Part shown: positions 13,973 through 25,640 of the stretch, piece after piece
Position numbering within the stretch: position 1 is the stretch's first letter
How the letters are laid out: the number at the start of each line of letters is the position of its first letter
From: Pontimonas sp.
GTDB taxonomy: Bacteria; Actinomycetota; Actinomycetes; Actinomycetales; Microbacteriaceae
Assembly (NCBI GenBank): GCA_030728325.1
Contig: JANQZT010000040.1
Location: forward strand, 1 to 37,789
Direction of reading: 5' to 3'
DNA length: 37,789 nt
Made by a program: the position numbers and the translations under genes
Notes under the pieces: model-generated
Database searches by the model: none
What the model was told of the DNA's origin: nothing
The model's input: the letters and a program-made list of their open reading frames with translations, nothing else

Positions 13973-16270
13973 TCAGCGCTGATATCCGACCACGGGACCG
14001 AGGACGCTCGGGAGGGTTCCTCTGTGAAGGGCATCAAGTTCTTCCAGGTCGAAGCTGAAGTGGTCGGCAACGTCAAGGCCCCGTAGTGACACATCGGTCA
14101 CACCCACTCTGGCTACTGGTACCCCTCGACCCTCACACAACCCGCGGAACTTGACGTCGTCTTCTCGGGCAACGCTCACGACCATTCGTGCCACGGACTC
14201 CGAGAACAACGCCTCGGTGATGTCCAAGTCGCCATCTTCCATTACTTCTGACAGCCACACCCGGGCGCCCACTCCTCGACGCAACACGCCCTCCACCAAC
14301 GTTTGAATGAGTCCCCCGGTGGAAACATCGTGAGCGCTGGTGACAAGCCCATCTTTTGCAGCTACCACCATGAGACCCGCCAAAGCCTTTTCGGCCGCAA
14401 GATTAGGTGCTGGGGGCATGCCTCCCAGGTGATCATGAATCACGCCAGCCCAGGCTGATCCATCAAGCTCTGGTCGGGTGGTGCCCAGCAGATAAAGATT
14501 CTCGCCATCGTCCTGCCAGCCGCTAGGCAGTCGGCGCTCCACAGTGTCGATGACTCCCATGACGGCCACCACTGGAGTGGGATGAATGGGAGTGGTCCCT
14601 GTTTGGTTGTAGAGGCTCACGTTTCCGCCTGTGACCGGGACTCCAAGTTCCATGCAGGCATCCGCCAAGCCGCGAACGGCTTCGGCGAACTGCCACATCA
14701 CCTCAGGGTCCTCAGGGCTTCCAAAGTTCAAGCAATCACTGACAGCACGGGGGTTAGCCCCCGTGGCTGCGACATTGCGATAAGCCTCCGACAGTGCCAA
14801 CTGCGCTCCGGTGTAGGGGTCCAGGTAGCTGTATCGGCCATTGGCATCTGTTGCGAGTGCGACCCCGAGGCCTGACTCTTCGTCGACTCGAATCATCCCC
14901 GCATCATCGGGGAATGCCAACGCAGTATTGCCCATGACGTAGCGGTCATATTGGTTGGTGATCCACTCGGGGTTTGCCAGGTTGGGTGATGAGAGAACCT
15001 GAGTGACCTGATCCCGCAACTCTTCGGGAGTCTGTGCTCGCGCCTGTCCCGACACCGTGTCTGCCTGGACTCCATCCAGCCATGCGGGCCGGTGGTAGGG
15101 GCGCTCATAGACCGGTGAATCAATGGCCACAGTCTTGGGGTCGACATCGACGATGGTCTCACCCTGCCAGTGGATGATCAGTCGACCGGTGTCCGTGACT
15201 TCGCCCAACACACTGGTCTCCACCTCCCACTTCGCGGTGATGGCGAGGAAGTCATCAAGTTTCTCCGGGCGAACAATCGCCATCATGCGCTCTTGACTCT
15301 CCGACATCAAAATCTCTTCTGCGGTGAGGGTGTCATCGCGCAAGAGGACATGGTCGAGAGTGACCTCCATCCCGCTGTCGCCGTTCGCCGCGAGTTCTGA
15401 TGTGGCGCAACTAATTCCTGCGGCTCCGAGGTCTTGAATACCTTCGACAACACCTTCGTGGAAGAGCTCTAAGCAGCACTCAATGAGCACTTTTTCTGCA
15501 AACGGGTCCCCCACCTGAACAGCGGGGCGCTTGGTGGGCCCACCCTCATCGAAAGTTTCACTGGCGAGGATGGAAGCTCCACCAATTCCGTCTCCTCCGG
15601 TTCGAGCCCCGAAGAGGACCACTTTGTTGCCGGCACCTTTGGCGTTGGCGAGGTGGAGGTCTTCGTGTCGGAGAACTCCCACCGCCAAGGCATTCACCAG
15701 AGGGTTGTTTTGGTAAATCGGGTCAAACCAGGTTTCGCCACCGATGTTGGGCAGTCCTAGACAGTTGCCGTAAAAGCTGATGCCACTGACCACACCCGGC
15801 GCAACCCGCTGGGTGTCGGGGTGATCTAGCGCCCCAAAGCGCAGGGCATCCATGACCGCGACGGGCCTGGCCCCCATAGAAATGATGTCGCGAACGATTC
15901 CGCCCACCCCGGTTGCGGCTCCCTGGAACGGTTCGATGAAGCTCGGGTGGTTGTGGCTCTCAATCTTGAAGGTGACTGCCCAGCCTTCCCCGATGTCAAC
16001 AACTCCAGCGTTTTCCCCCATGCCGACCATCAGGTGGGTGCGCATATCGTCGGTAACTTTTTGGCCAAACTGGCGAAGGTGAACTTTGGAGGACTTGTAG
16101 GAGCAGTGCTCGCTCCACATCACCGAATACATCGCCAGTTCACCTGATGTAGGCCTGCGGCCTAAGAGGCGACGGATTTCCTCGTACTCATCCTTTTTCA
16201 GACCGAGCGCCTCATAGGGCTGCTCTTTTTCTGGGCTGCTCTCTGCCTGGGATACAGAATCGACACTCAT
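13973..16270 (-). CDS. purL: Phosphoribosylformylglycinamidine synthase, PurL subunit
   Basis: The ATP-dependent synthetase subunit of FGAM synthase, working with PurS and PurQ, both encoded upstream. At 765 residues it is the short PurL of the three-subunit complex. Diagnostic stretches are [55 protein letters not shown] and GNVSLYNQT. The DUF3817 stop overlaps the start: GTGATG allows GTG at 16273 or ATG at 16270, and I prefer the ATG (TGATG coupling). It is the last biosynthetic gene of the purDC-SGNH-SQ-L run. Confidence 0.95.
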
Positions 16271-16743
16271 CACTCACCACCCCATTCGGTGGGAGAGCCG
16301 AGCGCCAGCAAAATACTGATGGCGAGCGCCATTCCCAGCACGATGATCACAAAAGACCAGACGGGGTGACGAAGGCCGAGACGAACAAAACGATCAACCC
16401 AGTGTTGATCGCGGGGGTCACCGGAATCCTCGAGGCGCCACTCTCCCTCGAGCTTGTTCCTTTTCTCCAACCACCGATCAAAGGGCCAGGTGACCCACGG
16501 TGGAATAGCCGAGAGGATGGCCAACACGATGGTCCCAAAACCCCAGCGCAGGTTGATGCCGATAATGACCGCGGTCACGCAATAGGCCAGGAAGATGATT
16601 CCGTGGCTGAGCCCCGCCACAAAAAACAGCGGGCCGTCGTAGGCGAAACCGTAACGAGCCACCATGGCAATGATCAGGAGAGTCCAGGTTGCCATTTCGG
16701 CCAGTGCCATCACCCGATAGAGGGATCCCGGTGTCCTGGTCAC
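16270..16743 (-). CDS. DUF3817 integral membrane protein
   Basis: A 157-residue protein with four or so hydrophobic helices (about 10-30, 37-60, 66-88 and 130-150). Its first part matches the DUF3817 pattern ([26 protein letters not shown]), known as a small bacterial membrane family without established function. The charged loop [14 protein letters not shown] follows the third helix. It is translationally tied on both sides: its GTG overlaps the purQ stop (GTGA) and its stop overlaps the purL start, so it is made with FGAM synthase subunits. That could mean a link to purines or simply operon packing. Confidence 0.8.
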
Positions 16744-17435
16744 GCGTTCACCACCTGAGTCAGAACGGACTGGAACATCGCGAGACCATCGGTCCCAGAC
16801 TTCATTGCCACATCAGTGTCGGGGCCAAAGCCAGCCTCCACCGCGTGCTCTGGGTGAGGCATGAGCCCCACAATGCGTCCCGTCTCGTTGCGCAGACCAG
16901 CGATGTCGTGGGCGGAACCATTCGGGTTCACCTCCAGGTAGCGAAAAGCCACCAGGCTCTCTCCTTCAATTCGCTTGAGGGATTCATCGTCCGCGATGAA
17001 CCCACCCTCACCGTTCTTGAGGGGGATCACGATTTCTTGGTGGAGTTCATACCCGCTTGTCCACGCAGTTTCAGTGTTCTCCACCCGCAGTTTCTGGTCC
17101 CGACAAATGAAATCGCCGTGGTCGTTGCGCACCAGCCCACCGGGGAGGAGCCCGGCTTCCACCAGAATCTGGAATCCGTTACAGATACCCAGAATCGGGA
17201 GCCCCTTCTTGGCCTCGCTCACGACCTCCGACATGATCGGCGAGTGTGCGGCAATCGCCCCACAGCGGAGGTAGTCCCCGTAGCTAAAGCCTCCAGGAAG
17301 GATGAGGGCATCAACGCCCTCGAGGTCATGCGTGCCATGCCACAGGGGGACAGGCGTGCCGCCGGCTAAGCGGACCGCGCGGAGCGCGTCACGATCATCG
17401 AGTGATCCAGGAAAAGTGACGACCCCGACTCTCAT
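16740..17435 (-). CDS. purQ: Phosphoribosylformylglycinamidine synthase, glutaminase subunit PurQ
   Basis: The class I glutamine amidotransferase that supplies ammonia to PurL. The nucleophile Cys sits in LGICNGFQIL and the His-Glu of the triad in MPHPEHAVE near the C-terminus; the start VGVVTFPGSLDDRDA and LILPGGFSYGDYLR are typical of PurQ. At 231 residues it is standard size. The ATG overlaps the purS stop by 4 bases (ATGA), and GGAGGA lies upstream inside purS. The stop overlaps the DUF3817 start. Confidence 0.95.
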   Translation of the reverse strand: MRVGVVTFPGSLDDRDALRAVRLAGGTPVPLWHGTHDLEGVDALILPGGFSYGDYLRCGAIAAHSPIMSEVVSEAKKGLPILGICNGFQILVEAGLLPGGLVRNDHGDFICRDQKLRVENTETAWTSGYELHQEIVIPLKNGEGGFIADDESLKRIEGESLVAFRYLEVNPNGSAHDIAGLRNETGRIVGLMPHPEHAVEAGFGPDTDVAMKSGTDGLAMFQSVLTQVVNA

Positions 17436-17736: not shown

Positions 17737-18522
17737 CTATCGAGCGCTCAACGCCTCCAGTGCGCCACGCTCGAGAGCGTCCTCGAGTGCAAAGCGAGCC
17801 CAGTCTCGATACCCGTCTTCGCTGGGATGGAATCCATCCACCGCAAAAAAAGTGTCGTGGTATCCGGTCGGAGGAGGGGACATCATGGCGAACGGGAATG
17901 ACTCGATTAGTGGACGGATGGACCGCTCAATGGCTTGAGCGTGGGCATAGATAATTCCGCGCAGCGGTTGGGGCAACGTGGGGAACAAATAAAACGCTGG
18001 AAGTGACGAGAAGATCAGCACAGCCTCGGGGTGTCCGTCGTGCAGAACCGTCAGTAAACGCTCAAAACGAGACACTGTAGCGCCCAGGGGCTTGAGGTCC
18101 TTAGCGTCGTTCGCGCCGAGTGAGACAATCACCACATCGGCCGGAGACGACAATGCCGGGGTGAGGAACCGACCCAGGATGTCTTTTGAGGTCGCACCGC
18201 TTTCTCCTACGGATCGCCAGGACACACCTCGCTGGGTTTTCTCGTGAAGGGCGAGAGAAAACTGCGGTACGAGACCGTGGAGCGGGTCCTTCACTCCTAC
18301 CCCAGCAATTGTGGAGTCACCGACACCGAGAACCGAGAGCGGAGACGGACCGGGCCTCTCGCCTTCCCAGGGACTGGGAGCGTGCGGAAGCCTCGGCACC
18401 TGCCTGCGCACCCACTTTCCCTGCGCGTACAGCAGGGGGCTCAACCCCAGCGCAACAGGCCACGCTGCCCGGTGTGCCAGCGTTGGCGCAGCCAAGGCCT
18501 GAGGTGGGGGATTGAGTGCCAT
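17737..18522 (-). CDS. SGNH/GDSL hydrolase embedded in the purine operon
   Basis: A predicted serine hydrolase of the SGNH fold. Block I is GVGDSTIAG (catalytic Ser), block III SLGANDAKD (Asn) and block V DGFHPSEDGY (Asp and His), so the active site is complete. About 70 N-terminal residues precede block I and include a weakly hydrophobic stretch that could be a signal or anchor. Substrate unknown; family members act on lipids, sugar esters or peptidoglycan O-acetyl groups. Its ATG overlaps the purC stop (TGATG); a GTG one codon earlier (18525) is an alternative. Having an esterase between purC and purS is not metabolically obvious. Confidence 0.85.
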   Translation of the reverse strand: MALNPPPQALAAPTLAHRAAWPVALGLSPLLYAQGKWVRRQVPRLPHAPSPWEGERPGPSPLSVLGVGDSTIAGVGVKDPLHGLVPQFSLALHEKTQRGVSWRSVGESGATSKDILGRFLTPALSSPADVVIVSLGANDAKDLKPLGATVSRFERLLTVLHDGHPEAVLIFSSLPAFYLFPTLPQPLRGIIYAHAQAIERSIRPLIESFPFAMMSPPPTGYHDTFFAVDGFHPSEDGYRDWARFALEDALERGALEALSAR

Positions 18523-19406
18523 CACACTAAATTGTCGACTGCTTTACCGGTAAGGCGCTGAAAGAGTTCGCGATAGCGATCCATCGTGTGGTCCACGAGA
18601 TGCGCGGGCAGAGCGGGCGGGGACCCTTTCTGGTTCCAGTTCTCCTGCAACCAGTTGCGAATGAGTTGCTTGTCAAAGCTATCCAGACGATTCATTCCGC
18701 CTTCGGAATATAACTCTCCATCCCAATAGCGACTGCTGTCGGAGGTGAGGACCTCGTCGCCGAGTGTGATGGCACCGGTGGTTCGGTGGCGGCCAAATTC
18801 GAACTTCGTGTCAGCCAGGATGACCCCCCGCGTGAGAGCAATATCTCGAGCGCGAGAATATAAAGAGAGACTGAGGTCCCGAAGTGATGCGGCGTCCTCC
18901 GAGCCAACAAGCTTTGCCATCTGATCAAACGAAATGTTTTCGTCGTGATCCCCCACGGCTGCCTTGGTAGCAGGGGTAAAGAGCGGCTCGGGGAGTTCAT
19001 CGCCCTCGGAGAGACCCGGGGGGAGTTCGACGCCACACACCCGCGATGTTGCCTGGTACTCCTTCCAACCACTTCCCGCTAGATATCCACGGACAACGCA
19101 TTCCACGGGGAACATCTCCAGAGGCTCTACCACCATTGCGCGATCGGCGACCTCCTCGGGTGGGTCCTCGCCGGTCAGATGGTTCGGAACATCTGAGAGC
19201 TGCGTGAACCACCAGCGCGTGAGGGAGGTGAGTATCGCGCCCTTGCCAGGTATTTCTGGGGTGAGAATGTGGTCAAAGGCACTGACCCTGTTTGTCGCGA
19301 CAATCAGGAGCTTGTCCGCATCGCGGACGGTAGATGCCGTTTGGGGAATATACAGCTCTCGAACTTTGCCTGAGTAGACCGGAGTCCAGCCCGTCAGTTC
19401 GGTCAT
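18522..19406 (-). CDS. purC: SAICAR synthetase
   Basis: Phosphoribosylaminoimidazole-succinocarboxamide synthase: condenses CAIR and aspartate with ATP. Diagnostic segments are YSGKVRELY at the nucleotide-binding strand, RVSAFDHIL, VVRGYLAGSGWKEYQ, LADTKFEFG and DEVLTSDSSRYW. The 294-residue length fits the actinobacterial form. The ATG overlaps the purD stop by 4 bases (ATGA), and the stop is coupled to the SGNH hydrolase start. Confidence 0.95.
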   Translation of the reverse strand: MTELTGWTPVYSGKVRELYIPQTASTVRDADKLLIVATNRVSAFDHILTPEIPGKGAILTSLTRWWFTQLSDVPNHLTGEDPPEEVADRAMVVEPLEMFPVECVVRGYLAGSGWKEYQATSRVCGVELPPGLSEGDELPEPLFTPATKAAVGDHDENISFDQMAKLVGSEDAASLRDLSLSLYSRARDIALTRGVILADTKFEFGRHRTTGAITLGDEVLTSDSSRYWDGELYSEGGMNRLDSFDKQLIRNWLQENWNQKGSPPALPAHLVDHTMDRYRELFQRLTGKAVDNLV

Positions 19407-20653
19407 GAGACAACGCGCAGGGCAATGTCACGACGATAGTGCGAGCCCTCCAAGCTAATGCTCTCCAACGTGTCATATGCCGACTGCCGCGCATCGGCAA
19501 AGGTAGCTCCCGTGGCAATGACGCTCATCACACGACCCCCGGTCGCTAGGAGGTCAGACCCATCCCATGCTGTTGCGGCATGAGCGATGCTGACATGTGG
19601 GTCAGCGGGAAGGGTGTCCAACCCCACGATCTCTCTACCGGTCACGGGGTTCTCGGGATATCCCTCGCTTGCCAACACCACGGTCAGCGCACACTGGTCG
19701 CTAAAGCGGGGAGGCTCGACACTGTCCAACATTTCTGTGGCTGCCGCGTAGAGCAAGGGGGCCAATGGTGATTCCAGGCGGGCGAGCACTACCTGAGTCT
19801 CAGGGTCACCAAAGCGGGCATTGAACTCGATGACCTTGACGCCATCCTCGGTCACAATAAGGCCGCAGTAGAGGAGACCAATGAACGGTGTTCCACGTTG
19901 GGCAAGCTCGTCCACTACAGGCTGGGCAATCGTGGTGGTCACACTCTCCACAAAGCCATCCTCAAGCCACGGGAGGGGAGAGTAGGCGCCCATTCCACCC
20001 GTGTTGGGGCCTTCATCGCCATCGAAGGCTCGTTTGTAATCCTGCGCTGGGCTGAGGGGAACAATCCGCTGACCATCGCTGACGAAGAACAACGACACCT
20101 CAGGGCCATCGAGAAACTCTTCGACCAGGACATCCCCGTGTTGGAGGTAGAAGGTCGCGTGCTCGATTGCAGCCTCCCTGTCCTCTGTCACCAACACTCC
20201 TTTACCCGCGGCAAGCCCGTCAGCTTTGACTACATAGGGGGAACCGGATGCATCAAGAGCCGCAGTGAGCTCTTCCTCCGTGGACACAGTCCATGCTTTG
20301 CCGTTGGGAACGCCGGCGGCCGCCATGATGTCCTTCGCAAAAGACTTTGATCCTTCGATGGCCGCGGCCTCTTTGTCGGGGCCAAAAACCGCAACCCCTG
20401 CTTTCCGCAGTGCGTTGGCGACTCCCGCCACGAGCGGAGCCTCTGGTCCGATGACGACCAAGTCAACATCAGATGTAACGGCAAACTCGGTGACGACTTT
20501 GGGGTTGGCAGGATTCAAGCCGACAATCTCGGCATCGGCAGAGATTCCCGCATTACCGGGAGCGGCCAAGATGTCGTGCTCCTCGGTGTCGCGACGAAGA
20601 GCTTTGATGATGGTGTGCTCTCTGGCGCCTGACCCAATGACCAAAATCTTCAC
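19403..20653 (-). CDS. purD: Phosphoribosylamine-glycine ligase (GAR synthetase)
   Basis: An ATP-grasp ligase making glycinamide ribonucleotide. The N-domain begins [15 protein letters not shown], followed by [25 protein letters not shown] (ATP loop), [11 protein letters not shown] and [13 protein letters not shown] (metal and ATP binding). At 416 residues it is complete. The GTG start lies 6 bases after TAGGGT (complement of 20660-20665) with no Shine-Dalgarno, so purD probably starts a leaderless operon mRNA running through purC, the hydrolase, purS, purQ, DUF3817 and purL. Confidence 0.95.
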
Positions 20654-20693: not shown

Positions 20694-21056
20694 GTGGCAG
20701 CCCGACGGATCCCTGATGACGCTGGAACGGAAGCGTTGAGGCGATGGGGTGACGGTGTTCATACGCCCGATGACGAAGCACTCGCCGTTCGTTTCACCCT
20801 GCAGATACTTCGTCAGAAGGCACCGGGTTCGAGTGTGGAGGTTCGAGTTCCACCGTGGGGAGCAGTGCAGGCTATCGACGGGCCTACCCACACGAGAGGG
20901 ACTCCCCCCGCCGTTGTCGAGATGGCTCCCGCGGTGTGGCTAGAGATCGCCACAGGGTCTGCGACCTTTGAACACCAGCTCTCCGAAGGACTCATTAACG
21001 CCTCGGGAGAGCGCTCAAATCTCTCAGCCTGGTTACCGGTAGTCCCGTTACCCTGA
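20694..21056 (+). CDS. Sterol-carrier-protein-like protein
   Basis: A 120-residue cytoplasmic protein of the bacterial 'sterol carrier family' found in actinobacteria. The segments SSVEVRVPPWGAVQAIDG and APAVWLEIATG resemble the lipid-pocket fold of SCP2/MDMPI-type proteins; no catalytic residues are recognisable. The family is commonly seen next to purine genes in this phylum, which matches its place between purD and purF, but its role is not known. The start is GTG, 7 bases after TAGCGT, without a Shine-Dalgarno. The next gene starts 4 bases after its stop. Confidence 0.7.
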   Translation: MAARRIPDDAGTEALRRWGDGVHTPDDEALAVRFTLQILRQKAPGSSVEVRVPPWGAVQAIDGPTHTRGTPPAVVEMAPAVWLEIATGSATFEHQLSEGLINASGERSNLSAWLPVVPLP

Positions 21057-21060
21057 GACC

Positions 21061-21354
21061 ATGACCACCCCGGACCCTGCACCCGAGCAGAGAGTCACCA
21101 TACGACGTTCCCCTCGACTCTCGGCCTTTGTCGTGGTGTTTGGTTTTCTAGGGTTTGTGGGAACTCTGATTCTGACGGCACTCTATGAGGCCGACCCGTC
21201 GGTGGGCTTTGGCACGCTGTTCGCCTACTTCTCGCTCTATGGAATTACCGGATCCATTGCCGTCGGGATTGTTCTCTGGCTGATTCTGGACCTGCGCTCC
21301 AAGCGGAAAGTCACCGAAGCCGTCATGGCTCGGGAAGAGGGACGTGAGGACTAA
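21061..21354 (+). CDS. Small two-helix membrane protein, function unknown
   Basis: A 97-residue protein with a basic N-terminus, two hydrophobic helices (about 22-43 and 53-78) and a charged C-terminal tail (LDLRSKRKV...EEGRED). I do not recognise a family. It follows the sterol-carrier-like gene by 4 bases and is probably co-transcribed, although TACCCT (21049-21054) also lies 6 bases before its ATG and could drive a leaderless mRNA. Its stop overlaps that of convergent purF by 4 bases (CTAA). Confidence 0.7.
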   Translation: MTTPDPAPEQRVTIRRSPRLSAFVVVFGFLGFVGTLILTALYEADPSVGFGTLFAYFSLYGITGSIAVGIVLWLILDLRSKRKVTEAVMAREEGRED

Positions 21355-22808
21355 CTGGTCTGGTGAGTTTCCACCCACGCAAGATAGTCATCGCTCACCG
21401 TTCCGGTCACGTACTCACCGGTGAAGCAACTCATATCGAGTTCGGTGACATCGGAGCCTTCGATAATGGCGTCACGCATGTCCTCAACCTCTTGATAGAT
21501 CAGGTGGTCCGCCCCAATTTCGCGGGCAATCTCAGGAATTGTGCGCCCCGCGGCAACCAACTCACCCTTGTTCGGCATGTTGATGCCATAGACGTGAGGG
21601 AAACGAACAGGAGGCGCTGCCGACGTGAAGGTGACACTCTTGGCTCCTGCTTCACGAGCCATTTCCACGATCTCTCGTGACGTGGTTCCCCGGACAATGG
21701 AGTCGTCCACAATCAGAACGTTCTTGCCCGCAAACTCACTCGACATCGCGTTCAACTTCTGTCGAACACTCTTTGTTCGTTGGGCCTGGCCGGGCATGAT
21801 GAAGGTTCGCCCCACGTACTTGTTCTTGTAGAAGCCCTCGCGGTACTCGATCCCAAGTTTCCTGGCCACCTGCATGGCTGCGGGACGCGCGGAATCGGGA
21901 ATGGGCATCACGACATCGATGGTGTCGGTGGGGGCATAGCGCGCAATGGTGTCCGCAAGCTTGTCGCCCAGGCGAAGCCTGGCCTCATAGACGGAGATCC
22001 CATTCATGATGGAGTCGGGTCTGGCGAGGTAGACGTATTCAAAAGAGCAGGGCACTAATCGAGGGTTCTCTGCGCACTGCTGGGAGTAGAGCGTTCCCTC
22101 CCGGGAGATAAAGATTGCCTCACCAGGTTCGACGTCGCGCACAATGTCATACCCGGATGCTTCGAGAACAAGCGATTCGCTCGCGACAATCCATTCGTCG
22201 CCCACAAGGCCTGCCTGTCGGCGACCCAGAATCAGCGGCCGAATCCCGAAGGGGTCTCGGAATGCCAAAATTCCGTGACCAGCAATGACGGCAATAGCCG
22301 CGTAGGAGCCCTCGACTCGCTTATGCAGAGCGGTCACCGCGTCAAAAGCAGTCTCGGAAGTGAAGGACGTTCCCGACTCGGCTGACTGCAACTCGCTGGC
22401 CAAAACGTTGACCAGCATTTCCGTGTCGGACGTGGTGTTCAGGTGCCGGCGGTCCTTCTCTGCCAATTCCTTGGTGAGCTCACGGGTGTTGGTGAGGTTC
22501 CCGTTATGGACCAGCACAATTCCATAAGGAGCGTTCACATAGAACGGTTGAGCCTCTTGCTCTTTCTTGGCATTACCCCTGGTCGCGTAGCGCACGTGGC
22601 CCAGGCCAATGGTTCCCACGAGCGTGCGCATGTCACGGGTGCGGTAACCCTCGCGCACCTGACCCTTGGACTTGTGGATATGCAACGTGTGTTCATCGGA
22701 GGTCGCAATACCGGTGGAGTCTTGGCCTCGGTGCTGAAGAAGGGCAAGTGCGTCATACACCTGTTGGTTGACGGGTGACGACGATACGATTCCCACGATC
22801 CCGCACAT
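21351..22808 (-). CDS. purF: Amidophosphoribosyltransferase, E. coli-like type without Fe-S ligands
   Basis: First enzyme of purine synthesis: PRPP plus glutamine to phosphoribosylamine. The N-terminal nucleophile amidotransferase starts MCGIVGIV (catalytic Cys2); the PRTase domain has VLIVDDSIVRGTTS. The frame opens at a TTG at 22850, but I choose the ATG at 22808 so that Cys2 becomes N-terminal; GAGGAG is 12 bases upstream. B. subtilis- and mycobacterium-type PurF have a propeptide and four cluster cysteines. Here RFPHVYGIN and LDMSCFTGEYVTG lack the first cysteine of the CxxC pair and the one before YGI, and the whole protein resembles E. coli PurF (RFPNVYGID, FNGVYVT). Its -10 is probably TAGGCT (complement of 22850-22855). 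Confidence 0.93.
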   Translation of the reverse strand: MCGIVGIVSSSPVNQQVYDALALLQHRGQDSTGIATSDEHTLHIHKSKGQVREGYRTRDMRTLVGTIGLGHVRYATRGNAKKEQEAQPFYVNAPYGIVLVHNGNLTNTRELTKELAEKDRRHLNTTSDTEMLVNVLASELQSAESGTSFTSETAFDAVTALHKRVEGSYAAIAVIAGHGILAFRDPFGIRPLILGRRQAGLVGDEWIVASESLVLEASGYDIVRDVEPGEAIFISREGTLYSQQCAENPRLVPCSFEYVYLARPDSIMNGISVYEARLRLGDKLADTIARYAPTDTIDVVMPIPDSARPAAMQVARKLGIEYREGFYKNKYVGRTFIMPGQAQRTKSVRQKLNAMSSEFAGKNVLIVDDSIVRGTTSREIVEMAREAGAKSVTFTSAAPPVRFPHVYGINMPNKGELVAAGRTIPEIAREIGADHLIYQEVEDMRDAIIEGSDVTELDMSCFTGEYVTGTVSDDYLAWVETHQTS

Positions 22809-22871: not shown

Positions 22872-24437
22872 TCAGTCGATACGCCCCGAACTCTCGAGGG
22901 CAGTGCTGCGAGTGCGAGCGAATCGGCGTCGCAGGGCGGCGAGAATTCCACCGCCCGCAAGGACACCGGTTCCCACTCCCAGCCACACCCCTGCACCCAA
23001 GGGCTCAGGAATCTGGGGCCCCACTTCGTCCACACTCCGGGGCACTCTTTCCGCGGAGAACGGCTCGGGGATTTCGGGGGTGCTTTCCATCACCGGAGGG
23101 AGAACGACAGGAATGTCAAAGCTTTGTTCCACGGGAGTTCTCACAGGAGCTTGCTCCGAGGGCGCGGGCGCAATGGTCACCTCTGCAGGAGGGCTATCAG
23201 AAGTGGGGGCTGCAGGGGTAGGTGACGAGGGCGGGTCAGAGCTCACCACAGGTTCCTCCACCACAGGGGGTGGCGGGGCTGCCATGACGCTGAGTGTTGC
23301 GCTGGAAGAGGACGCTCTGGAGAGCGTCACAATCCCGTCCGTCTCACTCCGGTCAAGAGCGGACCAGGCCAGTGGGTATGTCCCGGGCTCCACGGCAGTT
23401 GTGGCCGACAGAGTCACCTGCAGAAGGCCTCCTGCATCGGCAGCGCGCTCCCAACTCACACCCTCCGGGAGTCCGGTGAGCTCCACCTCTCTCGTCGTGG
23501 GTGCTGTGGGGGTTTGGTAGGGGTCCGCGAAAGCCATGGTGAGAGGTGCTGACGGTTCGCCATCGGCAGTGATGCTCCAGGTGGCGGGCATCGCGCAGGA
23601 GGTCATGCTCTCCCACACGGCACCGAATGCTCCCGCTTGCGAGGCGGCAAACGATGAGGCGGCGCTTGCCGAGCAAGGGTCAGCATCGACAATCCCCACC
23701 GTGATTTCCATCGTGAAGTCCGCCGCATCCCCCGGAAGGAGATACAGGGTGGGGCTTCGATCACCATCAGCAAGTGGTGTGTACATCGAGGCCCCGCCTT
23801 CGAAGGTGGGAGACCCTGCTGCACTCGTGACATGGATGATCACGCTGGGATGGGCGCCCGAGGAGTCTGTGATGAGCAGGGTCGAGGTTCCTGCTCCGCT
23901 GTAGACGGGGTTGTAGCCGCTACTCAACTGCGCCACCCAATAAAGCCTGCGGTCGATAGCGGACTCATCCGCGAGGGAGCGGTGACGCATGGAAAAGCGG
24001 ACCTGGTTGCCACTCAGGCTGACCGACTTCTCGGTGTAAATCTGGTTGTTGGGGTTCGCGCTCAAATAGCCAGGCGTGGTCCATGATGAGTCTCCACCGG
24101 GGGAGGGTGATGATGTACCGGGATCAGGAGAAATATCTCGGCGGGCCTCCGTCCCCGTCGCTGTCGTCCACTCCATCCCCATCATCCCGAGCGAGTTAAA
24201 CGCCGGACCCTGCCAGCCGTACTGCCCACTCGTGAAGTCTCTTTGGACTCCGCCCGAGAGCACACCAAAAAATTCATCAAAGCCTTGGTACTCGACGCTT
24301 GCCGTCTGAGGCCCGGGGGACGTTGCTTGGCTGGGCGGGAGAGCGACCTGGGTGAGCCCTGCTCCGAGGAGCAGCACCCCCACCCAGGAGGTGGTGGCAG
24401 AGAAGGTGGTCGTTCGAGTCGTGGTCTGCTGTGTCAT
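22872..24437 (-). CDS. Exported, membrane-anchored surface protein of unknown function
   Basis: A 521-residue protein with a threonine-rich N-terminus and signal-peptide helix (about 17-38), a Gly/Ser/Thr-rich extracellular region, and an Ig-like beta region ending in alternating strands (about 300-380). A long Pro/Ser/Glu/Val-rich stalk (about 385-475) leads to a C-terminal hydrophobic helix (GVWLGVGTGVLAGGGILAAL) with an RRRFARTR stop-transfer. No LPxTG motif is present, so the C-terminus is a membrane anchor rather than a sortase signal. Two cysteines (in DADPCSAS and SMTSCAMP) may pair. I do not recognise the domain. ATG is 6 bases after TAGCCT (complement of 24444-24449), no Shine-Dalgarno. 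Confidence 0.8.
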   Translation of the reverse strand: MTQQTTTRTTTFSATTSWVGVLLLGAGLTQVALPPSQATSPGPQTASVEYQGFDEFFGVLSGGVQRDFTSGQYGWQGPAFNSLGMMGMEWTTATGTEARRDISPDPGTSSPSPGGDSSWTTPGYLSANPNNQIYTEKSVSLSGNQVRFSMRHRSLADESAIDRRLYWVAQLSSGYNPVYSGAGTSTLLITDSSGAHPSVIIHVTSAAGSPTFEGGASMYTPLADGDRSPTLYLLPGDAADFTMEITVGIVDADPCSASAASSFAASQAGAFGAVWESMTSCAMPATWSITADGEPSAPLTMAFADPYQTPTAPTTREVELTGLPEGVSWERAADAGGLLQVTLSATTAVEPGTYPLAWSALDRSETDGIVTLSRASSSSATLSVMAAPPPPVVEEPVVSSDPPSSPTPAAPTSDSPPAEVTIAPAPSEQAPVRTPVEQSFDIPVVLPPVMESTPEIPEPFSAERVPRSVDEVGPQIPEPLGAGVWLGVGTGVLAGGGILAALRRRFARTRSTALESSGRID

Positions 24438-24518: not shown

Positions 24519-25640
24519 GTGAGTGAGCCCTCCCCCTATCAATCGAGTGGAGTGGACACCACGGCTGGTGATCGGGCCGTCGAGCTCATGAAGGCCGCAG
24601 TTCTAGGTAGTCATTCGTCTCGTGTCATGGGTGGCGTGGGCGGATTTGCGGGGCTCTATGACGCGTCATTCCTCACCTCCTATTCCCATCCAATCCTCGC
24701 CACGTCGACAGATGGCGTGGGGACTAAAGTCGCCATCGCCCAGGCAATGGATGTCCACGACACCATTGGCTGGGACCTCGTCGGCATGGTCGTCGATGAC
24801 ATCGTCGTCGTCGGAGCGACGCCCCTGTTCATGACTGACTACATTGCCTGCGGCCGTGTTGTCCCTGAGCGAATTGCCGCCATCGTGCGAGGAATTGCGG
24901 AGGCTGCCGCGAGTTGCGGTGTGTCCTTGGTCGGCGGAGAGACAGCCGAGCACCCCGGACTCTTGGACCCCAACGAATATGACGTCGCCGGAGCTGCCAC
25001 CGGTGTTGTCGAAGCTGGCGACATGCTTGACCCCGCTAAAGTTCGTGCCGGCGATGCGGTTATCGCGATGGCTTCCAGCGGCCTCCACAGCAACGGCTTT
25101 TCCTTGGTGCGAAAAATTGTTGCCGATCAGGGGTGGGACCTTCACGCCACGAGGCCTGAGTTTTCTCGCGCGTTGGGTCTCGAGCTACTCGAGCCCACCA
25201 TGCTCTACACCAGCTCGATTCTTGAGCTCATGGCTGCTCACCCCGGGGCCCTTCACATGTTGAGCCACGTGACCGGTGGTGGTTTAGCCCAAAACCTTTC
25301 GCGCGTCATCCCCCAAGGGCTGGCTATCGATGTTGACCGCTCAACCTGGTCGCCGCCCACCGTCATGCAGGTGCTGGCTGACGCCGGCGGCTTCACCCTG
25401 GGTCAGGTCGAGGACACCTGGAATATGGGGATTGGCATGGTGGCTGTGGTGGACGCAGCAGAAGCTTCAGCAGTGACGGCGACGTTGCGCGCTTCAGGCC
25501 ACCAGGCATGGCAGGTCGGCGTTGTGAGCGAGAGCGCGGGAGAAGTGTCACACGACACCATCACGAGCGCTAAGGGTGTTGAGGGCGGCGCAATCCGGTT
25601 GGTCGGAGCTTACGCAGACTCTTCTTCGGCGTCGTCGTAG
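24519..25640 (+). CDS. purM: Phosphoribosylformylglycinamidine cyclo-ligase (AIR synthetase)
   Basis: Closes the imidazole ring using ATP. Characteristic stretches are GFAGLYD, LATSTDGVGTKVAIA (the conserved DGVGTK), DLVGMVVDDIVVVGA, GGETAEHPGLL, ASSGLHSNGFSLVR and HVTGGGLAQNLSRV. The 373-residue length is normal. The GTG start lies exactly 6 bases after TAGGAT with no Shine-Dalgarno. It stands apart from the main pur operon. Its 3' end overlaps the convergent DUF3073 gene by 31 bases. Confidence 0.95.
   Translation: MSEPSPYQSSGVDTTAGDRAVELMKAAVLGSHSSRVMGGVGGFAGLYDASFLTSYSHPILATSTDGVGTKVAIAQAMDVHDTIGWDLVGMVVDDIVVVGATPLFMTDYIACGRVVPERIAAIVRGIAEAAASCGVSLVGGETAEHPGLLDPNEYDVAGAATGVVEAGDMLDPAKVRAGDAVIAMASSGLHSNGFSLVRKIVADQGWDLHATRPEFSRALGLELLEPTMLYTSSILELMAAHPGALHMLSHVTGGGLAQNLSRVIPQGLAIDVDRSTWSPPTVMQVLADAGGFTLGQVEDTWNMGIGMVAVVDAAEASAVTATLRASGHQAWQVGVVSESAGEVSHDTITSAKGVEGGAIRLVGAYADSSSASS

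Follow-up and report, generated by a model that had tools for sequence, protein, structure and literature searches.

Two kinds of amidophosphoribosyltransferase (PurF) are the closest described counterparts of the enzyme considered here. The Escherichia coli enzyme (PDB 1ecb, 1ecf, 6czf and 8w7d) is oxygen-insensitive and begins with Met-Cys1, with no propeptide, whereas the Fe-S enzyme of Bacillus subtilis (PDB 1gph and 1ao0) and of Actinomycetota other than the one studied here has both a propeptide and four cysteines that hold the cluster. The two kinds belong to the same family (TIGR01134) and share a reaction. We analysed a 37,789-nucleotide stretch of DNA from Pontimonas sp. (Microbacteriaceae), referred to below as the window, in which a purine gene cluster contains a purF gene of the first kind.

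An E. coli-type PurF in an actinobacterial genome

The purF open reading frame lies on the minus strand of the window, where it opens with ATG-TGC and continues for 485 codons to the stop (Table 1). An E. coli-type PurF had been proposed at this position, with the strand left unspecified, on the basis of E. coli-like phrases in the protein, and every one of these phrases is found in the 485-residue translation. The protein scores 483.8 bits in a profile search with TIGR01134 (cut-off 350) and can be aligned from end to end with E. coli PurF at 54% identity, reaching 564-566 bits over about 482 residues against the PDB sequences, compared with 297 bits for the B. subtilis Fe-S enzyme; as sequence matches, these scores are far beyond chance. 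Identity is 62-64% to the PurFs of Burkholderia and Caballeronia, which come from large plasmid records, are the closest sampled outside Actinomycetota, and are themselves 59% identical to E. coli PurF, but only 40-42% to three actinobacterial Fe-S PurFs. The nearest PurFs of all, at 94-97% identity, are carried by three Pontimonas metagenome-assembled genomes (MAGs). The source genome (1.24 Mb, 76 contigs, 91.8% complete) contains one PurF; a second TIGR01134 match, covering positions 1-206 with 90.6 bits, falls below the cut-off.

Table 1. Features of the window around purF
Feature	Coordinates	Strand	Remarks
purF	21351..22808	-	Amidophosphoribosyltransferase of the E. coli type (485 residues), propeptide not apparent; TIGR01134, PDB alignments, cluster-Cys columns, AU test
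Catalytic Cys1 codon (TGC)	22803..22805	-	Directly after start ATG 22806-22808; role from family knowledge and PMC3261824
purM	24519..25640	+	Divergent from purF; Microbacteriaceae by tree
521-aa ORF	22872..24437	-	Between purF and purM; no Pfam match; 26-38% identity in three loci of the same genus (L206, L207, L208)
SCP_3 (PF17844) gene	20694..21056	+	Marks the flank of the ancestral purF position
purD	19403..20653	-	
purC	18522..19406	-	
purQ	16740..17435	-	
purL	13973..16273	-	

The Met-Cys start is preceded at 12 nt by GAGGAG. An alternative in-frame ATG four codons farther upstream abuts this GAGGAG and would add only the residues MPPS, an extension that relatives do not support: the frame is open for fewer than five codons before Met-Cys in 16 of the 125 E. 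coli-type loci. By the same count, in which loci overlap between collections, all 38 Fe-S loci have at least 25 open codons at this place. Thus, with the start assigned from sequence only, Cys1 directly follows the initiator methionine and the propeptide of Fe-S PurFs is not apparent, in keeping with the original prediction that none is needed. The glutaminase residues R73, Y74, N101, G102 and D127, in what we take to be the E. coli numbering, are all retained.

The cluster-binding positions give a more divided picture. Four alignment columns, which we take from the roles assigned in the B. subtilis enzyme to be the cluster-cysteine sites, are occupied by cysteine in 32, 31, 31 and 31 of the 32 Fe-S-type rows, as against 44, 0, 0 and 37 of the 44 E. 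coli-type rows. In the window protein these positions are C253, H404, D457 and C460 (mature numbering), so that the claim that the cluster cysteines are not conserved is correct for the second and third positions but not for the first and fourth. The two remaining cysteines sit at the original positions, and none was found at shifted ones. E. coli PurF likewise has residues other than cysteine at the second and third positions, although it has valine where the window protein has C460. The Burkholderia row contains the same two cysteines as the window protein, and the pair common to both looks like a relic. Among other PurF sequences, that of a Saprospira grandis plasmid (L178) has cysteine at all four positions, and its annotated coding sequence starts with MCGIVGF, with no apparent propeptide.

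As the sole PurF found in its genome, the window protein would be expected to perform the first committed step of purine synthesis. After removal of the methionine, Cys1 of the Ntn-type glutaminase domain would hydrolyse glutamine, and the resulting ammonia would pass to the phosphoribosyltransferase domain, where PRPP would be converted to phosphoribosylamine for PurD. Neither cleavage of a propeptide nor a 4Fe-4S cluster should be required. By analogy with the E. coli enzyme, the window PurF is presumably oxygen-insensitive.

Phylogeny and probable donor

Phylogenetic analysis places the window PurF with proteobacterial PurFs rather than with those of the Fe-S type (support 100/99 and 100/100), outside the actinobacterial Fe-S clade, and all actinobacterial E. 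coli-type rows form one clade (100/100). Forcing both Microbacteriaceae types into a single clade costs 592 log-likelihood units and is rejected by the AU test (p = 7e-56). Because this test excludes a grouping with the Fe-S PurFs of Microbacteriaceae, the window purF is a xenolog. This had been anticipated in the original prediction as a xenologous replacement, a view supported by the tree test, the single copy in the genome and the location of the gene at the ancestral spot (see below). The same test bears on the possibility of vertical divergence, in which an Fe-S PurF of the family would have shed cluster and propeptide and grown similar to E. coli PurF. Two of the four cluster positions are still cysteine, as such a history might leave them, but the same two cysteines are present in Burkholderia PurF, and the window protein is just 40% identical to an Fe-S PurF of the family. 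Given also the cost of the one-clade constraint, which had already led to its rejection, we regard vertical divergence as extremely improbable.

Among the sampled PurFs, the nearest outsiders are those of Burkholderiales. In the first careful tree (68 of 77 rows) the actinobacterial clade is nested among betaproteobacterial sequences with supports of 96/93, 95/80 and 84/33, and the quick tree made from the full 77-row alignment also nests it there (93, 90 and 62). The five betaproteobacterial rows are disfavoured as one group (p = 0.01), with Neisseria joining the gammaproteobacteria. Neither a clade of beta- plus gammaproteobacterial rows in a smaller careful tree (p = 0.30) nor one of Burkholderiales plus the actinobacterial E. 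coli-type rows (p = 0.30) is rejected. For a sample of 10 proteobacterial PurFs, all from plasmid records, with other phyla hardly represented, this pattern suggests that the donor was probably proteobacterial and perhaps a betaproteobacterium similar to Burkholderiales.

Base composition was dropped as evidence of transfer: at a GC content of 0.574 and a GC3 of 0.683, purF is no outlier and lies within the range of 11 other genes checked. A search of viral contigs for a phage or plasmid vehicle returned no relatives for the PurF query (P0001) and one fragment for a Burkholderia PurF query. Bacterial-looking purF genes occur in OR845580.1, OR846843.1 and CAKLQH020000004.1 (by name, phages of Escherichia, Listeria and Acinetobacter), and these records look like phage entries that contain DNA of the host or of other bacteria. 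One annotated region from Burkholderiales was compared, on a plasmid of Comamonadaceae OS-4 (L171); there purF follows folC-dedD-cvpA, precedes metZ and is not beside purM. This block has IS91 and Tn3 transposases on both sides, and the segment looks mobile. Two MAGs labelled as Acidobacteria (L119) and Cellulomonadaceae (L150) encode Microbacteriaceae-like PurFs that are 80% and 78% identical to that of the window; these MAGs are probably mislabelled or misbinned.

Position of purF within the purine locus

The window differs from E. coli in its actinobacterial host and in the order of its pur genes: purA, a 197-residue nuclease-like ORF, purL, a DUF3817 gene, purQ, a 262-residue ORF without an NCBIfam match, purC and purD are followed by the SCP_3 gene, purF, a 521-residue ORF and purM. 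The 521-residue product has, by eye, a signal-like start and a stretch rich in proline, serine and threonine. The neighbouring pur genes had been judged to be actinobacterial, and purM, the gene for which a tree was made, indeed falls within the Microbacteriaceae (100/99).

Fe-S purF genes lie upstream of purM on the same strand, with gaps of up to 1.2 kb, in all 25 regions compared, which were drawn from two sets (22 and 3) inside and outside Microbacteriaceae. None of the 33 E. coli-type regions with purM in reach has this ancestral arrangement; in 30 of them purF is divergent on the upstream side of purM, and in three it lies downstream on the same strand. Six further E. coli-type regions, four from the family designated f12 and two from the genus designated g51, have no purM in reach. 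Across another 80 E. coli-type loci, some from the same genomes as the 33 regions, purF is opposite to purM in 65 and downstream in 10, and purM is out of reach in five. The E. coli-type purF occupies the ancestral purD-SCP-purF-purM spot, but in a rearranged form. An ancestral spot combined with a non-ancestral arrangement is what would be expected if a foreign gene had been added beside the native purF and the native gene had then been lost. Among 134 loci searched for leftovers of a displaced purF, none gave a match at E < 0.01.

Distribution of the two PurF types

The E. coli-type PurF is carried by most sampled genomes of the family. In a draw of 199 Microbacteriaceae genomes, for which at most eight candidates per genome were scored, 196 had a match, comprising 165 of E. 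coli type and 31 of Fe-S type by score class. A larger, overlapping draw of 398 genomes (at most four candidates per genome, counted by hand from E-values with fragments included) yielded 393 with a match, 331 of E. coli type and 62 of Fe-S type. The replacement had been attributed to the lineage of the window, which proves too narrow, and a transfer specific to that lineage is rejected by these surveys. Twelve of the 398 genomes had two matches, which represent pieces of one gene in two cases and duplicates of the same type in two; in the other eight the second match lies outside the matches listed. Among the matches listed for these 398 genomes, none showed both PurF types in one Microbacteriaceae genome.

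In an order-level draw of 198 genomes, the type was found in four of the 184 outside Microbacteriaceae, and matches at E <= 1e-120 occurred in 11 genomes of a class-level draw of 246 and in two of a phylum-level draw of 246, all of them Microbacteriaceae (the class and phylum draws overlap the others). Within the draws made, its occurrence outside Microbacteriaceae is confined to two families of the order, f12 and f14. Six of 24 f14 genomes carry it, without a second PurF. Among 47 f12 genomes, 41 have the Fe-S gene only, two have no match, and four (G270, G857, G863 and G874; loci L225, L351, L353 and L354) have the E. coli-type gene, always in addition to the Fe-S gene. In G857 both types reside on one 4.28-Mb contig and therefore do not reflect contamination. 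The E. coli-type purF of L351 has rsmA- and rsmI-type methyltransferase genes nearby, whereas purM is out of reach.

The window PurF itself is an ordinary enzyme of a known kind, and the replacement extends to most of its family. In our judgement it is very probable that the window purF represents a family-wide, xenologous and cluster-free replacement of Fe-S PurF that catalyses the usual opening reaction of purine synthesis. No earlier report of a PurF-type replacement in Microbacteriaceae was found in the literature searched, which included few subscription journals. Independence from oxygen and iron supply is a natural guess for the selective reason. In this family a single locus provides a natural comparison of an essential enzyme that has an oxygen-labile Fe-S cluster with one that has none, which would allow tests of the cost of the cluster and of the reason for such swaps. 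A practical consequence is that the type of a Microbacteriaceae PurF needs to be checked before the mycobacterial enzyme is taken as its model.

History of the replacement within Microbacteriaceae

In a tree of rpoB and rpoC from 58 genomes, the Fe-S type appears in three separate places: a deep clade (G010, G081, G013 and G095) that is sister to the rest (94/78), an early clade (G062, G065, G070 and G133), and a late clade in which Fe-S and E. coli-type genomes are mixed (98/97). The best tree implies five changes of PurF type, bootstrap trees imply four to six, and well-supported branches force two. Because of these three places, a single early replacement requires either retained double copies or later returns. 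The Fe-S PurFs of the family group together (86/86 in the careful tree, 96 in the quick tree, and 74/95 with three rows), which indicates that those of the late clade probably stem from retention, or from exchange between family members, rather than from import out of other sampled lineages.

These results are consistent with a sequence of events in which, early in Microbacteriaceae, a purF of probably proteobacterial and perhaps betaproteobacterial, Burkholderiales-like origin would have entered beside purM in the opposite orientation. The native Fe-S purF would afterwards have been lost in most lineages, while a minority kept or regained it at the original place, and the E. coli-type gene would later have reached at least one more family (f12).

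Two versions of this replacement fit the data, and we give them equal weight. In the first, the family ancestor, perhaps together with f14, would have held both genes for a long time, the E. coli-type gene back to back with the Fe-S purF and followed by purM, and independent losses would have produced the present distribution. This accounts for the common opposite orientation of the E. coli-type genes and explains why the 25 Fe-S regions keep the ancestral order; it agrees with the single grouping of the family's Fe-S rows, with the placement of f14 as a lineage outside the Microbacteriaceae clade, which is not rejected (p = 0.18), and with the existence of dual carriers in f12. No such tandem is seen in Microbacteriaceae, however, among the matches listed for the 398 genomes, and we put the likelihood of long coexistence somewhat below even.

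In the second version, which we consider a serious contender, though short of an even bet, homology in the flanks (SCP_3 and purD on one side, purM on the other) would let relatives swap the purF segment either way, much like alleles. In genus g75, seven genomes are of Fe-S type, and the single E. coli-type genome has purF in the standard inverted arrangement. In f14 the E. coli-type gene is likewise inverted at this position, next to a purM that its tree places with f14 (83/86), and the f12 copies belong within the Microbacteriaceae clade, a position outside it being disfavoured (p = 0.015). Repeated switching is less easily reconciled with the four f12 copies that have no purM in reach, and the tree support for the f14 PurM is moderate.

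A PurF with threonine in place of Cys1

Both genomes of genus g51 (G051 and G121; loci L202, L203 and L360:9271-10734) encode an E. coli-type PurF that begins with Met-Thr. Neither genome yielded any other PurF, and the 20-kb regions showed no purM. At 128 positions that are invariant in 43 other E. coli-type rows, the g51 protein differs at five (C1T, K46R, Y74G, F88Y and N103H), all in the glutaminase domain, compared with zero to two differences for nine other E. coli-type rows subjected to the same test. Between the two genomes, the codons of this domain show 48 synonymous differences and one non-synonymous difference, so the domain is under purifying selection.

A tentative reading, which we consider possible, would extend repeated exchange to Micrococcales as a whole: the purF spot by purM would be a switching locus, at which Fe-S and iron-free forms of one essential enzyme, not orthologous to each other, are swapped repeatedly, within one genus and across families, under selection by oxygen or iron, with dual carriers as intermediates, and in one genus the iron-free form would then have lost the Cys1 nucleophile. 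Judging from its sequence, the g51 PurF is possibly ammonia-dependent or equipped with a threonine nucleophile, and it may be stranger than the window enzyme. PMC3261824 describes crenarchaeal PurF' proteins that lack the cysteine and that each occur alongside a normal PurF; the use of ammonia is one possibility suggested there for them.
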